DNA of 64,000 nucleotides, taken from Rhodobiaceae bacterium. GTDB taxonomy: Bacteria; Pseudomonadota; Alphaproteobacteria; RS24. The notes below the pieces were generated by a model. The model saw only the letters and a program-made list of their open reading frames with translations. It did no database searches and had not been told where the DNA came from. The translations under genes and the position numbers were made by a program. This document shows, in pieces, positions 45,905-62,894 of this stretch. The DNA is taken from contig JAHEIG010000003.1 of assembly GCA_024639515.1 (NCBI GenBank), forward strand, positions 1 through 64,000. Direction: 5' to 3'. How positions within the stretch are numbered: position 1 is the stretch's first letter; each line of letters starts with the position of its first letter.

Positions 45905-46720
45905 TTACGCTTTGTGGTCGTGATAAAGATTCAAGATGGCGCTGGCAACCTCTTCAATAGAGCGCCGCGTCACATCCAGCACCGGCCATTTCTGGCGTGC
46001 GAAAAGCCGCCGCGCCTCCGCCGTTTCGGTTTTAATCAATTCAGGGTCGACATATTCGGTTTCCGAGTCCTCGTTCAGACTCATCAGCCGGTTTTTACGG
46101 ATCTGCACCAAACGCTCTGTGCTGGTGGTCAGGCCAACAATCAGCGGGCGGCGCGCTTCGAGCAATTCCTGTGGCGGGTCAATGCCCGGCACCAGCGGCA
46201 CGTTGGCCGCCTTCATGCCGCGATTGGCGAGATACATACAGGTCGGGGTTTTCGAGGTGCGGCTGACGCCGGTCAGAATAATATCGGCGTCGTTCAAATC
46301 GCCCTGGCTTTGCCCGTCATCGTGCTGGATGGTGTAATTCAGCGCCTCAATGCGGCGGAAATAATCTGTGTCGAGGGCGTGCTGGCGGCCCGGCTTGCCA
46401 GCAACCTCAGCATTGAGATAAGCACCCAAAGCGTTCACGAACGGGTCGAGCACTGACATGCAGGGCAGGTTGAGCTGATCGCATTTCGATTGCAGGGTCT
46501 GGCGCAACTCCTCATCAAGGATGGAGAACATCACCGGCCCGGGGTTTTCCTCAATCGACTCGAGGGCGCGGGCCAAGGCTTTTTTGCCGCGCACCAGACC
46601 ATAGGCGTGTTCAACCGCTTGCCGGTCAATAAATTGCGAGCACACAGCTTTAGCGACGGCATTAATCGTCTCACCAGTGCTGTCTGAGATCATGTGTAGA
46701 TGGAAATAAGTGACGCTCAC
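45905..46720 (-). CDS. Pyruvate,phosphate dikinase regulatory protein (PPSR, DUF299 family)
   Basis: FHLHMISDSTGETINAVAKAV, ADIILTGVSRTSKTPTCMYLANRGMKAANVPLVPG. Start taken as GTG at 46720 (VSVTYFHLH); ORF open to 46780. Confidence 0.95.
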   Translation of the reverse strand: MSVTYFHLHMISDSTGETINAVAKAVCSQFIDRQAVEHAYGLVRGKKALARALESIEENPGPVMFSILDEELRQTLQSKCDQLNLPCMSVLDPFVNALGAYLNAEVAGKPGRQHALDTDYFRRIEALNYTIQHDDGQSQGDLNDADIILTGVSRTSKTPTCMYLANRGMKAANVPLVPGIDPPQELLEARRPLIVGLTTSTERLVQIRKNRLMSLNEDSETEYVDPELIKTETAEARRLFARQKWPVLDVTRRSIEEVASAILNLYHDHKA

Positions 46721-47164
46721 GAACACCCCAAGCTGATGTGAATAATGTGAATAGTGAGGATAAGTCGCCGTTCCTGACAATCCAAGACATTTTGTTCACA
46801 TTGCTGTTTTTTCATACCCTGAGTTTCAGGCGATTTATTAAATCACCAGCACCACATCTGAATCATGGGGACAGTTGCGGCTGGGGATAATTTGCTGGCT
46901 TATCCACGTTATTAACATAATCCACAGTCGGCTTTGGCGATAAAACCCGCACCAAAACATCAGCAATATCGGGATTAATCGTGCGACCTATTGGCGAAAT
47001 GTGCATAAAGCTATGTTATCACCGACATTCACAGTCTATGTTGCTGGCGCGCGAGTCTGTGAATTAAGCCCCTTCAACTGGATAATCCACAGAGACAAAG
47101 CGACACTACAACAACTACTATTATTTATATTAATATAGTAAATAGACCCCAGTGAAAGTTCCCG
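46721..47164. other. Candidate chromosomal replication origin (oriC)
   Basis: PPSR/hemE divergent intergenic region. DnaA-box-like 9-mers: TTATCCACG 46900-46908; TAATCCACA 46918-46926 and 47083-47091; reverse TTATCCCCA 46882-46890; reverse TTATCCTCA 46755-46763. AT-rich tract 47105-47145 with palindrome TATATTAATATA (47126-47137). Coding strand bias switches here. Confidence 0.8.
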
Positions 47165-48187
47165 ATGATAAGCAAGCCATTTCTCCGTCTTCTAGAAAAC
47201 AGCCAGCCGCCTGAGACGCCACCTATCTGGCTGATGCGTCAGGCGGGGCGTTATCTCCCCGAATATCGTGCAACGCGCGAGACGGCAGGTGGGTTTCTTG
47301 ATCTTTGTTATAACCCTGCACTCGCAGAAGAAGTCACCCTGCAACCGATTAGGCGCTATGGCTTTGACGCGTCTATTTTGTTTGCTGATATTCTGCTGAT
47401 CCCGCAAGCCTTGGGTCAAAAACTATGGTTCGAAACCGGAGAAGGCCCGCGGCTGACGCCGATCATGGATGCCTCGACATTGGATGGCTCAGACATTATG
47501 GCGACCTTGGCGCCGGTTATTGAAACGGTTGGCCGCTTATCAAAAAGCCTACCGGCTGAAACAACGCTGATCGGCTTTGCTGGTGCGCCATGGACGGTGG
47601 CGACCTATATGGTGGCCGGTCGTGGCACGCCTGACCAAGCACCAGCCCGGGAATTGGCAGAGCAACAGCCAGAAGCGTTTCAAGCGATTATCGATGTGTT
47701 GGTTGAAGCCACTATTGAGTATCTGCACGCACAGGTCTCTGCCGGTGCCGAAGTGGTTCAGCTGTTTGAAAGCTGGGCAGGGTCGCTAACTGGAGCCGCG
47801 TTTGAGCGTTGGTGCATTGAGCCTGTGGCGAAAGTTGTTCAGGGCTTGCGCGGGCGCGGCGTCAGCGTGCCGATTATTGGTTTCCCTCGCGCTGCCGATC
47901 ACGATATGGCAGATTATGTCGCGCGGACCGCGTGCCAGATTTTAGGTCTCGATACATTTGCCGACCGCAAAAGCTTGGCAGCCAATTTGCCGAAAGAGAT
48001 TATCCTGCAAGGTAATCTCGATCCTTTGACCTTGGTTGAAGGCGGGGCCAAATTGGATGCCGCGATTGATGAGATTTTGCAAGACTTTGAAGGCCGCCGT
48101 TTTGTGTTTAACCTCGGGCATGGCATTGTGCCGCAAACACCGCCCGAACATGTGGCGCAACTGGTAAACCGAATTAGGAAAAACTAA
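47165..48187 (+). CDS. hemE: Uroporphyrinogen decarboxylase
   Basis: PPIWLMRQAGRYLPEYRATR, GFAGAPWTVATYMVAG, FNLGHGIVPQTPPEHV. Confidence 0.98.
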   Translation: MISKPFLRLLENSQPPETPPIWLMRQAGRYLPEYRATRETAGGFLDLCYNPALAEEVTLQPIRRYGFDASILFADILLIPQALGQKLWFETGEGPRLTPIMDASTLDGSDIMATLAPVIETVGRLSKSLPAETTLIGFAGAPWTVATYMVAGRGTPDQAPARELAEQQPEAFQAIIDVLVEATIEYLHAQVSAGAEVVQLFESWAGSLTGAAFERWCIEPVAKVVQGLRGRGVSVPIIGFPRAADHDMADYVARTACQILGLDTFADRKSLAANLPKEIILQGNLDPLTLVEGGAKLDAAIDEILQDFEGRRFVFNLGHGIVPQTPPEHVAQLVNRIRKN

Positions 48188-48764: not shown

Positions 48765-50030
48765 ATGAATCAAATTAAACTCGAGGAACTGAAAGCTAGA
48801 ACGCCGACTGAATTGCTGGCGTTTGCTGAAGAACACGACATTGAAAATGCATCAGCCATGCTGAAGCAAGATATGCTGTTCGCGATTTTGAAGCGTCTGG
48901 CCGAAAACGACACAACGATTATCGGCGAAGGTGTTGTTGAGGTGCTGCAAGACGGCTTCGGTTTCCTGCGCTCGCCAGATGCTAATTACCTGCCAGGGCC
49001 GGATGATATCTATGTCAGCCCATCGCAAATCCGCCGCTTCGCGCTGCGATCGGGCGATACGGTTGAAGGTGAAATTCGTAGCCCGAAAGATGGCGAGCGT
49101 TATTTTGCACTTCTCAAGGTCAATAAAATAAACTTTGAAGACCCTGAAAAAGCTCGCCAGAAAGTCCATTTCGATAATTTGACGCCGCTCTATCCAGATA
49201 GCGCTTTCCGCATGGAAGTGGACACGCCAGATTTGAAAGACCGCTCATCGCGGGTCATCGACATTGTCGCGCCATTTGGTAAAGGCCAGCGCGCCTTGAT
49301 TGTGGCGCCGCCGCGTACTGGTAAAACCGTGCTGCTGCAAAACATCGCCAAATCCATCGCCGCCAATCACCCTGAATGTTACTTGATTGTGTTGCTGATT
49401 GACGAGCGCCCCGAAGAAGTCACCGATATGCAGCGCTCGGTGAAAGGTGAGGTGGTATCCTCAACCTTTGACGAGCCAGCTACCCGCCACGTGCAAGTAG
49501 CTGAAATGGTTATCGAAAAAGCCAAGCGCTTGGTCGAACATGGGCGCGATGTGGTGATCCTTCTGGATAGTATCACCCGCTTGGGTCGGGCTTATAATAC
49601 AGTCGTGCCAAGCTCCGGCAAGGTGCTGACCGGTGGTGTCGATGCGAACGCCTTGCAGCGTCCAAAACGCTTCTTTGGTGCGGCGCGGAATATTGAAGAA
49701 GGCGGCTCGCTGACGATTATCTCAACCGCGCTGATTGAAACCGGCTCGCGGATGGATGAAGTGATCTTTGAAGAATTCAAAGGCACTGGTAACTCAGAAG
49801 TGGTGCTGGATCGCAAAGTTGCGGATAAGCGCGTGTTCCCGGCCATCGACATTATGAAGTCGGGCACGCGGAAAGAGGAGTTGCTGACCGATAAGGATAC
49901 GCTGGCGAAAATTTATGTGCTGCGCCGTATCCTCAACCCAATGGGATCGGTCGATGCGATTGAGTTCCTGCTCGATAAGCTGAAAAACACCAAAACCAAT
50001 GACGAGTTCTTCGACTCGATGAACACCTAA
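48765..50030 (+). CDS. rho: Transcription termination factor Rho
   Basis: [75 protein letters not shown]. Confidence 0.99.
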
Positions 50031-50731
50031 AGCGCGTCGGCAAACACCGCCAGCGTGCGTTGGTGGGCCGCCTCGCTTGCAGCAGCGTCATAATGTGCCC
50101 CGCCAATACGAGCGAAAGCATGGTCTTGTTCGGCATAATCAAAAACCGTCACTTGTGGGTGCGCGTCAAGGCCGGCATGAATGGCGGCTTGCGCCTCGGC
50201 CGGGACAAATTCATCAAGACCGGCGACATGCAGCACCAGCGGGGCTGAAATGTTTTCCGCCTCACCGATGAGGTCTTGAATGCCGACGCCGTAATAGCCG
50301 ACATTGGCATCGGCATTGGTGCGTGTGGCGGCAAGATAGGCCATGCGACCCCCGAGGCAGAAGCCGACCGTGCCGACCTTGCCATTGCACTGGCTATCGG
50401 CCCGCAATGTATCAATCGCCGCTTGAATATCTTGCACGCCCAAATCGCCGTCAAAAGCGTTCATCAGGGCAAAGGCCTTTTGCCATTCTTCTTCGGTCTG
50501 GTCGGTCAGCGAGACATTCGGCTCAACCCGCCAGAACAGATCCGGCGCCAGGGCCAGATAGCCTTGCTCGGCATACCAATCGGCAATGCCGCGAATGTCG
50601 GCGTTGACGCCAAAGATTTCTTGAATGACCACAACCGCGCCGACGCTGTCACCTTGGGGCCGCGCCAGATAGGCGTCATAGTCACCGCTCTGTGTGTTTA
50701 CCTTGATTGTTTGTGAGCTGATTGCGGTCAT
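50027..50731 (-). CDS. Dienelactone hydrolase family protein
   Basis: [52 protein letters not shown] nucleophile Cys, [18 protein letters not shown]. Confidence 0.93.
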
Positions 50732-50773
50732 GTTTCTCTCCCTGTTTCATTGGTCTTTAATTTGTTTTGGTTA

Positions 50774-52885
50774 TTAAGTGTTATGCGCCGATAGCTCGGC
50801 GTTTAATGAATTTTGTCTCTCCCGCACCAAATCGTCAAGCATGGCGACCAACGCATCTGGCGTGGTCACCGGATTAAGGCATATTTGCCCGGGGCAGACA
50901 TAGGCCGTCGTTTGCCCGCCGATAGGCTGTTTGCCGAAGGCCGGGTGGTCGCTGGCGAGGCTGGCATCAGAGCCGACCAACAAAACCGACTTGCCGATAA
51001 TCGGATGGCTGGCAGCGGCGCGGCGCAGGGCATTTGCCGCATCGCCTTCAGCATCAGCCGGGTGCGGGCTGGCGATAATAATCGACAGCGGATAATCGCT
51101 GTCGCTTTTGGCCTGCAGCAGGCTGGTCATCGACGGGTATTGATTGGCCAAAAGCCCCGACAAAGAGGCGAACAAAGCCTGCCCGCGTTGTTGATAGGCG
51201 GGCTTGCCGGTGAGCCGCGTGAGCTGCGATAGGGCGCTCAAAATCGCTGCATTGGCACTTGGCGCGGCATTGTCTTGGGCTGGTCGGTTGCGCACCAGCA
51301 CACCTTCTGTGTCGGCGCGGTTGGCAAAATAGCCGCCGCGTTGGGCGTCTTTATAACCGGCCTCGACCAGTGCCATCCATGCCTCGGCGGCGACGATATA
51401 ATCCGCCGCGCCGGTCAGCTCGGCCAGTTGGCAGGCGGCGAGGCTGGCGAAAGCCAAATCGCTGGCCAGGGTTAAATCGAGCTGTTGGCCGTCTCGCGCG
51501 CTGTGCGCCAGCCCGCCCTCCGGTGTGGCCAGCGTGTCGCGCATGGCGTCGAAGGCCGTGACGGCCAGCGTGCGCCAGTCGTCGCGGTCAAACAACGCCG
51601 CCGCCTCAGCAATGGCGGCGATGGCCATGCCGTTCCAGTCGGCCAGAGTTTTGTCGTCGCGGCCCGGTTTTGTGCGCTGATTGCGATGCGCCAAAAGCAT
51701 CGCGCGGGCTTGGGCCAGCGCCGCTTCGTCGCGTTGTTCTGCGTTGTCCTCAGGCTTTGCGTGCAGGCGGTTGGGGATATTGCGGCCCTCGAAATTGCCG
51801 GCCTCAGTGATGCCATAAGCGTCGATAAACCGCGTCGCCAGACCATCTTCACCGCCGAGAACATGCTTGATCTCGTCCGGTGTCCAGACGTAAAACAAGC
51901 CCTCCTCGCCTTCTGTGTCGGCGTCGAGGCTGGCCGCCAAGGCGCCGTTTTCGAGGCGCATCTCGGCGTCGACCCAGCCAATTGTGTCGGCGATGCGGGC
52001 GGCCAGAAGCGGCGATGGCCGCTCACGATAAAGCTGGCACATGAGCTGGAGCAGCAGCGCATTGTCATACAGCATTTTTTCGAAATGCGGCACCAGCCAT
52101 TCGGCGTCGACACTATAGCGGGCAAAGCCGCCGCCAATATGGTCGTAAAGGCCACCGGCGCACATCCGCTCGACGCTGAAATGCACCGCCTCGCTAATCG
52201 CGCTATCGCCGAGTAATTGCGCTTGCTTGGCGAGAAAACCATAGAGGAAAGGCTGGGGAAATTTCGGCGCGCCGGATAAGCCGCCAAGCTCATTATCAAT
52301 ATGCGCGCTTAGGCTACGCGCCGCGCGTGTCGGCAGGTCGGCGGGCATGTCGCCACGGGCATCGGCTTTGGCGCGAACGGATAAGCCATCGGCTAAAGTC
52401 TGGGCGTTTTTGCCAATCCGCTCCGGCTCCTCAGTATAAAGCCGCGATAGCTCTTGCAATATTTGCATAAACCCCGGGCGGCCATATTGCGGGTTTTTGG
52501 GAAAATACGTGCCGCCCCAAAATGGCCGCGCATCGGCGTCGAGAAACATCGTCAATGGCCAGCCGCCCTGCTCGCCCATCATCGACAGAGCCGTCATGTA
52601 AATATCGTCGAGGTCGGGGCGTTCTTCGCGGTCCAACTTAATGCAGACATAATGCGCGTTCATCAGCGCCGCCACGTCGTCGTCTTCAAAGCTTTCATGC
52701 GCCATCACATGGCACCAATGGCACGCCGCATAGCCAACCGACAAAAGCACCGGCACATTGCGCCGCCGCGCTTCTTCAAAAACCGCCGCCTCCCATGGTT
52801 GCCAATGGACGGGGTTGTCTTTGTGTTGTTGCAAATAAGGTGAGGTGGCTTGCGCCAGACGGTTTTGGTTGAACTGCTGAGTCAT
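50774..52885 (-). CDS. Thioredoxin-domain DUF255/YyaL (spermatogenesis-associated protein 20-like) protein
   Basis: SPYLQQHKDNPVHWQPW, GYAACHWCHVMAHESFEDDDVAALMNAHYVCIKLDREERPDLDDIYM, GGWPLTMFLDADARPFWGGTYFP. Confidence 0.94.
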   Translation of the reverse strand: MTQQFNQNRLAQATSPYLQQHKDNPVHWQPWEAAVFEEARRRNVPVLLSVGYAACHWCHVMAHESFEDDDVAALMNAHYVCIKLDREERPDLDDIYMTALSMMGEQGGWPLTMFLDADARPFWGGTYFPKNPQYGRPGFMQILQELSRLYTEEPERIGKNAQTLADGLSVRAKADARGDMPADLPTRAARSLSAHIDNELGGLSGAPKFPQPFLYGFLAKQAQLLGDSAISEAVHFSVERMCAGGLYDHIGGGFARYSVDAEWLVPHFEKMLYDNALLLQLMCQLYRERPSPLLAARIADTIGWVDAEMRLENGALAASLDADTEGEEGLFYVWTPDEIKHVLGGEDGLATRFIDAYGITEAGNFEGRNIPNRLHAKPEDNAEQRDEAALAQARAMLLAHRNQRTKPGRDDKTLADWNGMAIAAIAEAAALFDRDDWRTLAVTAFDAMRDTLATPEGGLAHSARDGQQLDLTLASDLAFASLAACQLAELTGAADYIVAAEAWMALVEAGYKDAQRGGYFANRADTEGVLVRNRPAQDNAAPSANAAILSALSQLTRLTGKPAYQQRGQALFASLSGLLANQYPSMTSLLQAKSDSDYPLSIIIASPHPADAEGDAANALRRAAASHPIIGKSVLLVGSDASLASDHPAFGKQPIGGQTTAYVCPGQICLNPVTTPDALVAMLDDLVRERQNSLNAELSAHNT

Positions 52886-52959
52886 ATGCGGCACTTTACT
52901 CAACCTTTAGAGAAATGACCATTGGCAATAGTGCCAGCCGCAAACAATATGGAGCGCGC

Positions 52960-54299: not shown

Positions 54300-54315
54300 T
54301 GTTTCACGTGAAACA
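54300..54315. promoter_or_regulatory. parS centromere-like site (perfect 16-bp palindrome TGTTTCACGTGAAACA)
   Basis: Exact match to the canonical bacterial ParB-binding parS 16-mer, in the mnmE-mnmG intergenic region. Confidence 0.96.
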
Positions 54316-56268: not shown

Positions 56269-56904
56269 ATGACACCTGAGAGCTTTGCCGAGAAATTCAA
56301 CGTTTCACGTGAAACACTCGGCCAAATGATGATTTTTCAAGCCCTGCTCGGCAAATGGCAGCAGCGGATAAACCTCGTCGGCCCGGCGACGCTGGATGAT
56401 TTCTGGTCGCGCCACGCGGCGGATTCGGCGCAAATTGTCGCCCTCGCCCCGAAAAATGCGACGACATGGCTGGATCTCGGCAGTGGCGGCGGGTTTCCCG
56501 GGCTGGTGCTGGCGATGATGCTGGCCCCGCGCGGCGGCATGGTGCATTTGGTTGAGAGCGACGAACGCAAAGTGGCGTTTTTGCGCACTGTCATCCGCGA
56601 AACCGGTGCACCGGCACAGGTGCATTTGAGCCGAATTGAGGCCTTGGCGGCGGCGCAACCCGATTTTATCGGCGATATTCAGGTGATTACCGCCCGCGCA
56701 TTGGCCGCCTTGCCGAAATTATTGCCATGGATTGAGCCATTTACCAATTCATCCACAATCGCACTGCTTCATAAGGGCCTTGCGTGGGAAGAAGAATTGA
56801 CGCAAGCGCAACAATCGTGGACACTATCTGTGGATGTCGTGGAAAGCGTGACAGAACCAGCCGCGCGCATCTTGAAAATAACGCAGCTAATGCGGCGCGC
56901 GTAA
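56269..56904 (+). CDS. rsmG: 16S rRNA (guanine-N7)-methyltransferase RsmG (GidB)
   Basis: FNVSRETLGQMMIFQALLGKWQQRINLVGPATLDDFWSRHAADSAQ, LDLGSGGGFPGLVLA. Confidence 0.97.
   Translation: MTPESFAEKFNVSRETLGQMMIFQALLGKWQQRINLVGPATLDDFWSRHAADSAQIVALAPKNATTWLDLGSGGGFPGLVLAMMLAPRGGMVHLVESDERKVAFLRTVIRETGAPAQVHLSRIEALAAAQPDFIGDIQVITARALAALPKLLPWIEPFTNSSTIALLHKGLAWEEELTQAQQSWTLSVDVVESVTEPAARILKITQLMRRA
56301..56316. promoter_or_regulatory. parS-like site CGTTTCACGTGAAACA inside the rsmG coding sequence
   Basis: 15/16 match to parS; encodes VSRET of RsmG. Confidence 0.92.
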
Positions 56905-56943: not shown

Positions 56944-57783
56944 ATGACCGATACCGATGTAGCGATAGCAAGCCCGCCACGGGTTATTTGTCTGGCCAAC
57001 CAAAAAGGCGGCGTGGGGAAAACCACAACGGCGATTAATCTCGGCACGGGTTTGGCGGCGATTGGCGAGCCGGTTTTGCTGATTGATCTCGACCCGCAAG
57101 GCAATGCCAGCACCGGTCTCGGCATTGATCGCGACGATCGCGTCAAATCCAGTTTCGAGCTTCTTTTGGGCGAAATTCCACTCGACCAAGCGGTGGTGCC
57201 GACGGCGGTGCCCGGTTTTGACATTCTGCCCGCCAGTATGGACCTTCTGGGGATCGAGGTTGAGCTGTCTGATAACCCCCGCAGGCTTTACCGCCTATCT
57301 GACGAAATAGCCGCATTTCTGGGGGAAACGTCCGAATCTGGTAAGCATTACAACTACATCCTGATCGATTGCCCACCGAGCCTAAATATGCTCACTTTGA
57401 ATGCCATGGTGGCGGCGCAATCGGTGTTGGTGCCGTTGCAATGCGAATTTTTCGCCCTTGAAGGCCTGACACAGTTGCTCAGCACCATCGAACAAGTGCG
57501 CGACGATTTGAATACGACGCTGGATGTGCAGGGCATTGTGCTGACCATGTATGATTTGCGCAATAATTTGTCCGGTCAGGTCGAGGCCGATGTGCGAGAG
57601 CATTTGGGTGACACGGTTTATAAAACCGTTATCCCTCGCAATGTAAGGGTTTCTGAGGCGCCGTCTTTTGGCAAGCCGGCCCTGCTTTATGATCTCAAAT
57701 GCACTGGCAGTGTGGCCTATATGAAATTGGCCTCGGAGCTTATTCAGCGCGAGCGCGCGCGGGCCACGGCACAAGCAAGTTAG
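56944..57783 (+). CDS. parA: Chromosome partitioning ATPase ParA
   Basis: ICLANQKGGVGKTTTAINLGTGLA, LLIDLDPQGNASTGLG. Confidence 0.98.
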   Translation: MTDTDVAIASPPRVICLANQKGGVGKTTTAINLGTGLAAIGEPVLLIDLDPQGNASTGLGIDRDDRVKSSFELLLGEIPLDQAVVPTAVPGFDILPASMDLLGIEVELSDNPRRLYRLSDEIAAFLGETSESGKHYNYILIDCPPSLNMLTLNAMVAAQSVLVPLQCEFFALEGLTQLLSTIEQVRDDLNTTLDVQGIVLTMYDLRNNLSGQVEADVREHLGDTVYKTVIPRNVRVSEAPSFGKPALLYDLKCTGSVAYMKLASELIQRERARATAQAS

Positions 57784-57792
57784 GAAGTTAAA

Positions 57793-58761
57793 ATGGCAGA
57801 GAGAAAAAGAGGATTAGGGCGCGGCCTATCGGCGTTGATTGGCGATGGCGCCAAAAAAGCACTGACCGAACCGGCCCCCGTCAATGCACCGGCAAGCCCA
57901 CCGGCCGGCCAATCAGCGCCAGCTCAAGCAAGCCAACCAGCCTCTGCCGGCGGCGCCGGGTTTCAGCAATTGGGGGTCGATCAATTAGTGCCCGGCAAAT
58001 TTCAGCCACGGCAAAATTTTGACGATGATGAGTTGCAAGCCCTGGCTGCCTCGCTGCAAAAAAGCGGCGTGCTGCAACCGCTCTTGGTGCGGCCTCTGCC
58101 GAAAGCCGATGGCGCGACGCCGAGCTATGAGATCATTGCCGGTGAGCGCCGCTGGCGGGCGGCGCAATTGGCCAAGCTGCACAGCGTCCCGGCGATTGTC
58201 CGGGCGCTCGACGATAGCGAGAGTTTGGAAGTCGGGATTATCGAGAACGTTCAGCGCGCTGATCTGAATCCGATTGAAGAAGCTGAGGGATATCAACGAC
58301 TTATGAGCGAGTTCGCCTATACGCAGGCAGAGCTGGCCAAGACCATTGGCAAAAGCCGCAGCCATATTGCCAACATGTTGCGGCTCACAGGCGCGACGGA
58401 TTTTGTTCGCCAAGCCTTGGTCAAGGGCACATTGAGTGCCGGTCACGCGCGCGCCCTTTTGGGCCATGACCAGGCTGACGGGCTGGCCAAGAAAGTCATC
58501 GCGCAAGGTCTCAGCGTGCGCGCCACCGAAGCGCTTGCCGCCAATAAGACGGGCAAGAAATCAGCCGCCGCGAGAGCCAAAGTCAAAACCGAGAAGGACG
58601 CCGACACACGCGCCCTCGAGAAAACCCTGACCGATAGTTTGGGATTCACTGTGGCGATTCATGATCGTGGTGACGACACGGGCGGGCAGGTGACGATTGA
58701 TTATAAATCTCTGAGCCAGCTTGATGCGGTTATCGCGCGGCTGATGGGTCGCCACAATTAG
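57793..58761 (+). CDS. parB: Chromosome partitioning protein ParB
   Basis: RKRGLGRGLSALIGD, LVPGKFQPRQNFDDDELQALAASL, AGERRWRAAQLA, IGKSRSHIANMLRL (HTH). Confidence 0.98.
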   Translation: MAERKRGLGRGLSALIGDGAKKALTEPAPVNAPASPPAGQSAPAQASQPASAGGAGFQQLGVDQLVPGKFQPRQNFDDDELQALAASLQKSGVLQPLLVRPLPKADGATPSYEIIAGERRWRAAQLAKLHSVPAIVRALDDSESLEVGIIENVQRADLNPIEEAEGYQRLMSEFAYTQAELAKTIGKSRSHIANMLRLTGATDFVRQALVKGTLSAGHARALLGHDQADGLAKKVIAQGLSVRATEALAANKTGKKSAAARAKVKTEKDADTRALEKTLTDSLGFTVAIHDRGDDTGGQVTIDYKSLSQLDAVIARLMGRHN

Positions 58762-59816
58762 CGTTGTGCGGCGCGCGAAATGCGCAATAAGGTCTGCCCC
58801 GCTTTGGCGTGTGCCAGTGATTTAGACGCCCCCCGACATGATGCCTCGGCCTCTTGAATAAGTGACAGCGCGCGGGCTGCTTTGCGCCGCGACCACAGCC
58901 GCAACTGATTTTCAACCAGCGGCTTGCGGCGGAAATGCAAAGGCGGGCGGAACGATGACAGGGCGGCATTTTGCGGTGTGCCATTTTCCATCAGGCCGAG
59001 CACCAAATGCAGGGTCTGGAAATGCGTGCGTATGGCGGGCAGGGTCGCATCCGCCGGTGTGCCGCCAGCCAGCAACACATCCATCACACTATCGGCCTTG
59101 CTGACACGCCCCAGCGCGACGCTGTCAATCAGCTGATCAAACGAGGCTTGCGCCGAATTGCCGAGCACGGCGTCGACGTCATCCAGCGAGATCATACCGG
59201 TCGGCGCGTCCTTGGCCAGCGGGCCTTTGAACAAAACGATTTTTTCGAGGTCGCGCTGCATCAGGCCGCGATCCGTGGTCAGGCGGGCCGCTAAGACATC
59301 CAACGCGGCCGCTTCAATGCGATAATTTTCGCCTTCGAGAAACTGCCGCGCCAGACGCGCCACATCGCCCGATTCCAGCAAATAGCATGGCAGCGCCATG
59401 GCTTTATCGCTTTTCTCGGCCAGTTTGCGCAGGGCGGCGGTGGGCCGCAAATTACCGGCCTCGATAATCACCATGGATTGCGTCACCTCTCCGGCCTCGG
59501 CACCGCTGAGATAGAGTTTCGCGGCGTCGGGCGTTTTGCCGCCACCGCCGCGCACATGGACCAATTTATTGTCGCCAAACATCGGGATGGCGGCGGCCTC
59601 ATCGGCCAGCAAACCGGCTTGGCCGGTAAACGCGCTGTCATCAAATTGGGCATATTGCAAAGGGTCGGGGTCTTGACCGAGATAGCCGGCGCGCAAACTG
59701 CGGGCGGTTTCCATCACCCCGCCTTCATCCGGCCCATAGATCAGCACAAGCGCTGGGGCAGCACTGGCCTTAAAGCTGTCGACCCAAGCGGCAACCTTGT
59801 GGGCGGCAAGCTTCAT
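58758..59816 (-). CDS. holA: DNA polymerase III delta subunit
   Basis: ALVLIYGPDEGGVMETARSLRAGYL, RDLEKIVLFKG, SQASFDQLIDSVALG; between lptE and parB. Confidence 0.9.
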   Translation of the reverse strand: MKLAAHKVAAWVDSFKASAAPALVLIYGPDEGGVMETARSLRAGYLGQDPDPLQYAQFDDSAFTGQAGLLADEAAAIPMFGDNKLVHVRGGGGKTPDAAKLYLSGAEAGEVTQSMVIIEAGNLRPTAALRKLAEKSDKAMALPCYLLESGDVARLARQFLEGENYRIEAAALDVLAARLTTDRGLMQRDLEKIVLFKGPLAKDAPTGMISLDDVDAVLGNSAQASFDQLIDSVALGRVSKADSVMDVLLAGGTPADATLPAIRTHFQTLHLVLGLMENGTPQNAALSSFRPPLHFRRKPLVENQLRLWSRRKAARALSLIQEAEASCRGASKSLAHAKAGQTLLRISRAAQR

Positions 59817-60430
59817 TTTGCGGTGTCCGTTGGTGCCATGTCTTCAGCAATACGCGGCACCGCTTGGCGGATTTGATTGGCGAAACGGCGCATGGCGAGA
59901 TTGCGGATGCGCTCGCGGGTGGCGATATTGACCGCTTCATTATCGTTTTTGGCGAAGCTGTCATAATATTTGAAATCGCGCATCGCCACGACTTTGCCGT
60001 TTTGGTCGGCAAACTCAACCACCGCAATATGCTCGACGAGATAATTCTCGGGCTTGCCGGTCGGGTCAAAGATTTGCCCTTCTTGGCGTTCTTGCAAAGT
60101 GATGGAGAAGCGCAGCAAGCCATCTGCCGCAGGTTTCAGGCTGGTTTGCAGCGAGCGTGAGAGCTGGCGCCCTTGCAGGCTGGCCGGTGCTTCAATGTTA
60201 GATACTAAACCGTCAACGCCCGAGGTCTCGCCATCTTGTTGGTAGACCGGTGTGAAACCGCAGGCACCCAACGCCACGACAAGGCCGGCCACCGCGATGC
60301 GCTTGGCAAAACGTGGCGCGACATTAGATAACCAAGTTAACGATACGGCCCGGAACAATGATGCATTTTTTAACTGTCTGTCCGTCAAGAAACTTCTCCA
60401 CCTGTGGCTCGGCCATAACGACCTTTTCAA
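59813..60430 (-). CDS. lptE: LPS-assembly lipoprotein LptE
   Basis: [19 protein letters not shown] lipoprotein signal, leuS-lptE-holA order. Longest ORF overlaps the leuS 3' end; true start uncertain. Confidence 0.85.
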
Positions 60431-62894
60431 TCATACCCTTATCGGCGTCGCGTGGCACGGAAATTTCTGCCCGTCTTTTACCATTAATTTGAACCGGGAG
60501 AGTGATCTCGTCTTCGACCAGCGCGTCGCTATCGGCTTGCGGCCAAGCCGCTTGCGCCACCAGACCCTCGCCGCCGAGCAAGGCCCAGCAACTTTCGGCC
60601 AGATGCGGCATCATCGGTGAGAACAAATGCACCAAATGCAGCAAGGATTGTTTCAGCACGGCGCGGGCTTCGTCATCAGCAGGCTTGAAACCGCCAATGT
60701 GATTGGTCAGCTCATAAATCCGCGCGACGCCGCGATTAAACGCCAAGCCTTCAAGGTCTTGCGTGACATCCTGAATGGCTTTGTGGGTGACGCGATAAAG
60801 CGCCATCGCGTCGTCTCCTGCTGGGCGGTCTGCGCTGGCTGGCAAATCGAGCTGGCTGCCGGTTTCGGAAATAATCCGCCACAGGCGTTGGACAAATCGC
60901 CATGCGCCTTCAATGCCGTCTTGCGTCCATTGCACGTCGCGCTCTGGCGGCGAGTCCGACAACATGAACCAGCGCGCCGTGTCGGCGCCATATTGGGCGA
61001 TGATGTCATCAGGGTCGACGACGTTCTTTTTCGACTTCGACATTTTCTCGACGCCGCCAATCGAAATCGTCTGGCTTGGGTCGTTGGCCAAAACGGCGCC
61101 GTCTTCGGTGCGGGTAATGTCTTCGGGGGCGACCCATTTGCCGTCTTTGTCGCTATAGGTTTCGTGGCACACCATGCCTTGGGTAAACAGACCGTCAAAT
61201 GGCTCTTTGACGGAAAGGTGTCCGGTCTTCTCCATGGCGCGGGCATAAAACCGCGCATAAAGAAGGTGCAAAATAGCGTGCTCAATGCCGCCAATATATT
61301 GGTCGACCGGCAGCCAGTAATCAGCCGCCGCGAGGTCGGTTGGCGCATTATCAGCCAGCTCGGTGAAGCGAGCGTAATACCAGCTACTGTCAATGAAGGT
61401 GTCGAATGTGTCAGTCTCGCGTACCGCCTCGCCGCCGCAAGATGGGCAGCTTGTGTGCTTCCAGCTCGGGTGATGGTCGAGCGGATTGCCCGGCTTGTCG
61501 AAGCTAATATCTTCCGGCAGTTCTACCGGCAAGGCCTCGCGCGCCACCGGCACGGTGCCGCAATCAGGGCAATGGACAATCGGTATCGGGCAGCCCCAAT
61601 AGCGCTGGCGGGAAATCCCCCAATCGCGCAGGCGATAATTAATCCGCTTCTCGCCGCGCCCGTCGGCGGCAAAATCAGCGATTAATTTTTCTTGCGCCGC
61701 TTCTGGCGTCAGCCCATCGAGACCCGGCGAGTTAAACAACACGCCCTCGCCTGTATAGGCTTCCTTATCGACGGTGAAATCGTCACCGGCGTCTTTCGGG
61801 CGCACCACGGCGCGCACTGGCAAATCATATTTGCGGGCGAAGTCGAGGTCGCGTTGGTCATGCGCCGGACAGGCAAAAATCGCCCCCGTGCCGTAGCCCA
61901 TCAAAACAAAATTGGCGACATAAACCGGCAGCAGCCAATCATCATCAAGCGGATGGCGGACTTTTAGGCCAGTGTCGAAACCAAGCTTTTCGCCCGCTTC
62001 AATGTCGCTCTCGCTGGTGCCGCGACGGGCGCACTCGGCGCGGAACTCTTGCAGCGCTTGATTGTCCTCAGCCAGTTGAATGGCCAGCGGGTGGTCGGGC
62101 GAAATGGCGCAAAAGCTGGCGCCGTAAAATGTATCGGGGCGGGTGGTGTAAACCTCCAGCGCATCAATCGCGCCAACCGCTTGTTGCAGCTCAAAGCGGC
62201 ATTGCAGCCCTTGCGAGCGGCCAATCCAGTTGGTTTGCATGAGCCGCACTTTTTCCGGCCAGCGTTCCAGATCCGGCAAGGCGTCGAGCAGTTCTTCGGC
62301 ATGGTCAGAAATTTTCAAAAACCATTGCGTCAGTTGGCGTTGTTCCACCGGCGCGCCGGAGCGCCAGCCCTTGCCGTCAATCACTTGCTCATTGGCCAGC
62401 ACGGTTTGGTCAACCGGATCCCAGTTGACGATGCTCTCGCGCCGATCGACCAGACCGGCATCGAGGAAGTCCAAAAACATCGCTTGTTCGTGGACATAAT
62501 AAGACGGGTCACAAGTGGCCAGCTCACGCGACCAATCAATCGACAGGCCGAGGCGCTTGAGCTGCCCGCGCATGGCGTCAATGTTTTCATGCGTCCAGCG
62601 AGCCGGGTGGGTTTTCTTTTCAATGGCGGCGTTTTCGGCCGGCATGCCAAAGGCGTCCCAGCCCATCGGGTGCAGCACATTAAAGCCTTGCGATTTTTTA
62701 AACCGCGCCACGACATCGCCCATTGAGTAATTGCGCACATGGCCCATATGCACCCGACCCGATGGATAGGGGAACATTTCCAAGACGTAATATTTTGGCT
62801 TGCCGCAATCGGCATCAAGGGCTGTGAAGCAGTGCGCGTCTTCCCATCGCGCCTGCCAGCCTGGTTCTGTTTCGGACGGGTTATAACGCGACAT
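60324..62894 (-). CDS. leuS: Leucine--tRNA ligase
   Basis: [22 protein letters not shown] (HIGH region), [17 protein letters not shown] (editing domain), [16 protein letters not shown] (KMSKS). Confidence 0.98.

Follow-up and report, generated by a model that had tools for sequence, protein, structure and literature searches.

Gapless DnaA-box arrays in the PPSR-hemE intergenic region, almost certainly the chromosome replication origin of an uncultured alphaproteobacterium

RESULTS

DnaA boxes in the gap between PPSR and hemE

The window, by which we mean the whole 64-kb stretch of DNA that was analyzed, contains a 444-bp intergenic gap (positions 46721 to 47164) that runs from the GTG start codon of PPSR at 46720 on the minus strand to the ATG of hemE at 47165. 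PPSR, the left boundary gene, encodes a kinase/pyrophosphorylase (PF03618, COG1806/DUF299; 45905 to 46720, minus strand; Pfam E value, 1.1e-91), and hemE, the right boundary gene, encodes uroporphyrinogen decarboxylase (PF01208; 47165 to 48187, plus strand; Pfam E value, 2.2e-105). A first-pass annotation had placed a candidate oriC in a 444-bp gap between these two genes, and its coordinates and flanking genes are correct, as are the neighboring genes it named (maf, aroE, coaE, and dnaQ on the left; hemE, hemJ, and rho on the right). It had also read the gene directions on both sides of the gap as those of codirectional replication. This holds for the nearest genes, but further to the right several genes (50027 to 52903 and 58758 to 62894) point left, and gene codirectionality is therefore weak evidence.

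For the DnaA-box scan, we scored all 9-mers with at most one mismatch to TTATCCACA. Seven of the 18 such 9-mers in the window fall in the gap, compared with 0.17 expected from a first-order Markov model of the same composition (none of 20,000 trials reached seven; the maximum was four). The box rate in the rest of the window would predict 0.08. Five of these boxes had been named in the first-pass annotation and are all present (reverse TTATCCTCA at 46755, reverse TTATCCCCA at 46882, TTATCCACG at 46900, and TAATCCACA at 46918 and 47083), while two further boxes with one mismatch, reverse TTATTCACA at 46737 and reverse TTATGCACA at 47000, had been overlooked. The scan also confirmed the earlier observation that the gap of the window holds no perfect TTATCCACA box.

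The boxes are arranged in two arrays and three single sites. On the PPSR side, three 9-mers, TTATTCACA, CTATTCACA, and TTATCCTCA, follow one another on the minus strand without a gap, at a pitch of 9 bp (46737 to 46763). A minus-strand box, TTATCCCCA (46882 to 46890), precedes the middle array on the plus strand, which again consists of three gapless 9-mers, TTATCCACG, TTATTAACA, and TAATCCACA (46900 to 46926), and corresponds to the block TTTATCCCCgTTATTCAC of the family alignment. The box-like sequence TTATGCACA lies on the minus strand at 47000 to 47008, and the hemE-side, DUE-proximal box TAATCCACA was located by both scan and alignment on the plus strand at 47083 to 47091.

We then counted the pitch of same-strand boxes, allowing up to two mismatches. 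The window contains 147 boxes at this threshold but only four pairs at a 9-bp pitch, and all of them are in the gap: two among the minus-strand boxes 46737/46746/46755 and two among the plus-strand boxes 46900/46909/46918. Across the family, 43 pairs were spaced at exactly 9 bp, compared with one at 10 bp and one at 11 bp, where shuffled sequences lead one to expect 0.1; because the loci are related, the 43 cases are not independent events. The 9-bp pitch was clear in genera g1 and g5 and weaker in g3 and g4, where a third mismatch had to be allowed. On a 1.04-Mb contig of the relative G006, four such pairs lie in its 441-bp gap and nine elsewhere. The pitch was mixed in other Alphaproteobacteria, with 4, 7, 6, and 5 pairs at 9, 10, 11, and 12 bp, respectively. 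The low-affinity sites of Escherichia coli oriC, which we tried as a comparison for box pitch, have more than three mismatches.

A triplet array at a fixed distance from the last box leads into AT-rich DNA

Downstream of the hemE-side box, after exactly 14 nt, the plus strand reads CTA CAA CAA CTA CTA TTA (47106 to 47123; complement, 3'-GAT GTT GTT GAT GAT AAT-5'), an array of triplets resembling DnaA-trios. The box occupies the same place in 23/23 family members, although its sequence varies (TAATCCACA, TAATCAACA, or TTATCCACA), and the 14-nt register between box and triplets is likewise kept in all 23 (18 plus five further members, with AAA or ATA allowed as the second triplet). The triplets lead into an AT-rich tract at 47115 to 47146, a candidate DNA unwinding element. 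An AT-rich tract with a palindrome just 5' of hemE had been described before, and we located the palindrome, TATATTAATATA, at 47126 to 47137. The AT fraction reaches 0.72 in 50-bp windows between 47100 and 47169, and the alignment shows that the AT-richness is kept in relatives.

DnaA-trios of the Bacillus subtilis type have the sequence 3'-GAT-5', which appears as 5'-CTA-3' when the opposite strand is read (PMC8235120), and the published rule for the basal unwinding system (BUS) calls for a DnaA box with at most two mismatches, a spacer of 0 to 16 nt, and then at least three NAN triplets (PMC8287927). Applied strictly to the box at 47083, this rule failed: no run of at least three NAN triplets begins within 16 nt, because the CAA triplets (3'-GTT-5') break the run. 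Measured from the box, the unbroken NAN run begins at 23 nt and a relaxed G(A/T)N array at 14 nt. Strict BUS matches elsewhere in the gap were scattered and did not keep their position among relatives, and we discarded them. In four loci of other Alphaproteobacteria (L028, L029, L043, and L045), CTACTACAACAAC-type triplet stretches occur near hemE after TAATCCCC- or CACAG-like sequences; judged by sequence, they suggest a class-wide deviant trio element.

Conserved blocks and regulatory sites

Among the hemE loci retrieved from the family, the order PPSR-gap-hemE was found in 22 besides that of the window, with gaps of 417 to 549 bp, and relatives that keep the gap with conserved boxes reach down to 57% HemE identity. 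The PPSR-hemE arrangement also recurs in many other Alphaproteobacteria. Alignment of the family gaps revealed islands of conservation amid sequence that has otherwise diverged: GAGGATAAG, CCAAG..ATTT, TTTAWTAAA, TTTATCCCCgTTATTCAC, and the hemE-side module, in which ACA..ACAACAAC-type triplets come after the box and precede the AT-rich stretch. The GAGGATAAG part of the left array is nearly invariant across the family. The second island belongs to a block, CCAAGACATTTTGTTCACA (46782 to 46800, plus strand), that ends in a weak DnaA box, TTGTTCACA (46792 to 46800); its CCAAG (46782 to 46786) is invariant in 23/23 family members, and CCAAG..ATT was not seen in the PPSR-hemE gaps of other Alphaproteobacteria. 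The third is palindromic and reads TTTATTAAA in the window (46834 to 46842). As non-box blocks, CCAAG and TTTAWTAAA match neither the strict IHF nor the strict CtrA consensus.

The two GANTC sites that had been taken as CcrM-type are present at 46860 and 47053. However, two sites per 444 bp are about what chance would give and relatives do not keep them, so we rejected them as a sign of CcrM control. Strict searches of the gaps of all 23 family members returned no CtrA site (TTAA-N7-TTAA) and no match to the IHF consensus WATCAANNNNTTR. A CtrA-like site with one mismatch, of the TTATGCATGATTTAA or TTATACGCGATTTAA type, occurs in the gaps of g3 and g4 (L009 to L011 and L018 to L024) at the position of the window's TTTAWTAAA block; such sites are confined to genera other than that of the window. 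The genome carries CtrA-like, GcrA, and RAMA-domain (CcrM-type) genes. With strict CtrA and IHF sites both missing from the gap, silencing by CtrA in the manner of Caulobacter is not supported.

GC skew and parS sites

Across the window, the cumulative GC skew declines overall until it reaches its minimum at 47,227, after which it climbs. Because the window's own genome, a 1.72-Mb draft, is split into 136 contigs, the large-scale skew was drawn on G006, a relative from the same family assembled in three contigs, using the full 1,041,791 bp of its contig C3 (a contig, not a closed chromosome). The minimum of C3 lies at 775,646, about 0.9 kb from the only strong DnaA-box cluster of the contig, which comprises eight boxes in 442 bp, starts near 776,526, and lies in the PPSR-hemE gap; the next best cluster has three. 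A skew minimum elsewhere had been set beforehand as the finding that would count against the origin, and in both the window and G006 the minimum is found by the gap.

A perfect parS site, TGTTTCACGTGAAACA, was matched between mnmE and mnmG (54300 to 54315), and a parS-like site with one mismatch lies inside rsmG near its start, in the stretch encoding SRET (56301 to 56316). The parA and parB genes follow on the plus strand (56944 to 58761; Pfam AAA_31 for the former and ParB_N, HTH_ParB, and ParB_C for the latter). The two parS-like sites and parAB are thus 7 to 12 kb from the gap, and in G006 two perfect parS sites lie 6 to 9 kb from its PPSR-hemE gap.

DISCUSSION

We annotate positions 46721 to 47164 as an intergenic oriC with no strand assigned, on the basis of the skew minimum, the DnaA-box cluster, its conservation among 22 relatives, and the nearby parS sites and parAB. 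The gap is almost certainly the chromosome replication origin of this uncultured alphaproteobacterium. The oriC reading of the first-pass annotation is upheld by the skew minima of the window and G006, the box cluster, which is unique on the G006 contig, parS and parAB, and the boundary genes shared with Caulobacter. In our favored explanation, whose probability we put at roughly 0.95, the gap is oriC, where DnaA would act on clustered weak boxes and the AT-rich tract would be melted, with ParAB serving segregation through parS. Weighing against it are the lack of a perfect consensus box in the window's gap, the lack of strict IHF and CtrA sites throughout the family (in contrast to Caulobacter), the drawing of the large-scale skew on a relative's contig and not on a closed chromosome, and the breach of the strict trio rule by the triplet array.

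The gap separates a divergent gene pair and must contain both promoters, and in bacteria, Caulobacter included, DnaA controls transcription at some boxes (PMC4468827). That the gap is a divergent PPSR/hemE promoter region whose transcription DnaA controls, and no origin at all, is nevertheless very improbable: this would not account for the skew switch in the window and G006, for the fact that the cluster is unique, for the box-spacer-triplet module and its AT-rich tract, or for the nearby parS. A promoter role may exist alongside the origin role. We regard it as even less credible that the true origin lies elsewhere, for example at dnaA, with the skew switch at the gap arising from local gene-strand bias. 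Many bacteria do initiate beside dnaA, and the window's own genome is fragmented; yet over 1.04 Mb of G006 the skew minimum is at the PPSR-hemE gap, and the dnaA locus of that genome is 75 kb away on the falling part of the curve, where a 3.5-kb region around the gene contains a single box. We therefore rejected the dnaA locus as the origin. DnaA itself, encoded elsewhere in the genome, is full-length and ordinary, with the domain IV motif RDHTTVIHA.

An origin at the PPSR-hemE gap is mostly of an ordinary, known kind. The Cori of Caulobacter crescentus and the origin of Rickettsia prowazekii are both bounded by hemE and COG1806 (PMC1914354), in agreement with the first-pass annotation, which placed Cori beside hemE. 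Among the traits of a Cori-type origin, the gap has the hemE and COG1806 flanks, a GC-skew minimum, an AT-rich element, parS and parAB nearby, and more than 300 bp of intergenic DNA with a DnaA-box cluster that is unique within the window and the 1.04 Mb of G006. Weak rather than consensus DnaA boxes, an AT-rich stretch of about 40 bp, and parS within about 8 kb are likewise shared with Cori (PMC1914354; PMC4468827). Unlike Cori, the window and all 23 family members lack a strict CtrA or IHF site, and the boxes of the window are stacked at a 9-bp pitch. The R. prowazekii origin also sits between hemE and COG1806 (PMC1914354); the title of Brassinga et al. 2002, as cited in PMC4468827, reports CtrA and IHF sites there, whereas the strict consensus is absent from the gap of the window.

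By analogy with other bacteria, we infer that initiation would begin with DnaA binding to, and loading on, the clustered weak boxes, namely, an array on the minus strand near PPSR and boxes on the plus strand closer to hemE. Starting at the last box (47083), a DnaA oligomer could grow over the 14-nt spacer onto the triplets at 47106 to 47123, engaging the strand with the 3'-GAT-5' reading. DnaA would then melt the AT-rich DNA next to hemE, helicases would load there, and ParAB would segregate the new origins through the nearby parS sites.

The unusual detail is the stacking of the initiator-binding sites. The two box arrays of E. coli oriC face opposite ways, and the two arrays of the window oppose each other in the same manner. 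Like the origins of E. coli and Thermotoga maritima, the gap carries DnaA boxes in tandem, an arrangement that would serve head-to-tail oligomers of DnaA, but the preferred gaps between boxes are 2 to 3 bp for E. coli DnaA (PMC11317965) and 2 bp for T. maritima DnaA (PMC10316083), compared with 0 bp here. In the open-licence literature, we found no paper on gapless 9-mer arrays. The hemE-side module resembles the B. subtilis BUS: in both, a short spacer (14 nt here, against a published limit of 16) separates a DnaA box from phased triplets of like orientation that precede AT-rich DNA. It differs in that CAA triplets interrupt the required run of at least three NAN triplets; deviant DnaA-trios have been suspected to exist (PMC8287927). 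Conceivably, though we hold this only tentatively and at less than even odds, the family has a variant orisome in which gapless opposing box arrays feed deviant DnaA-trios, repeats of 3'-G(A/T)N-5' that begin at a constant distance of 14 nt.

The replication origin is now placed at PPSR-hemE in a family represented chiefly by metagenome bins. This gives an anchor to skew plots and to estimates of gene dosage and of growth rate (peak-to-trough). If the variant orisome is real, neighboring DnaA molecules in an oligomer can adopt a different helical phase, and DnaA can read trios that lack the central adenine. The conserved gapless arrays and near-trio triplets make this family a natural test of how strict the DnaA spacing and trio rules are.
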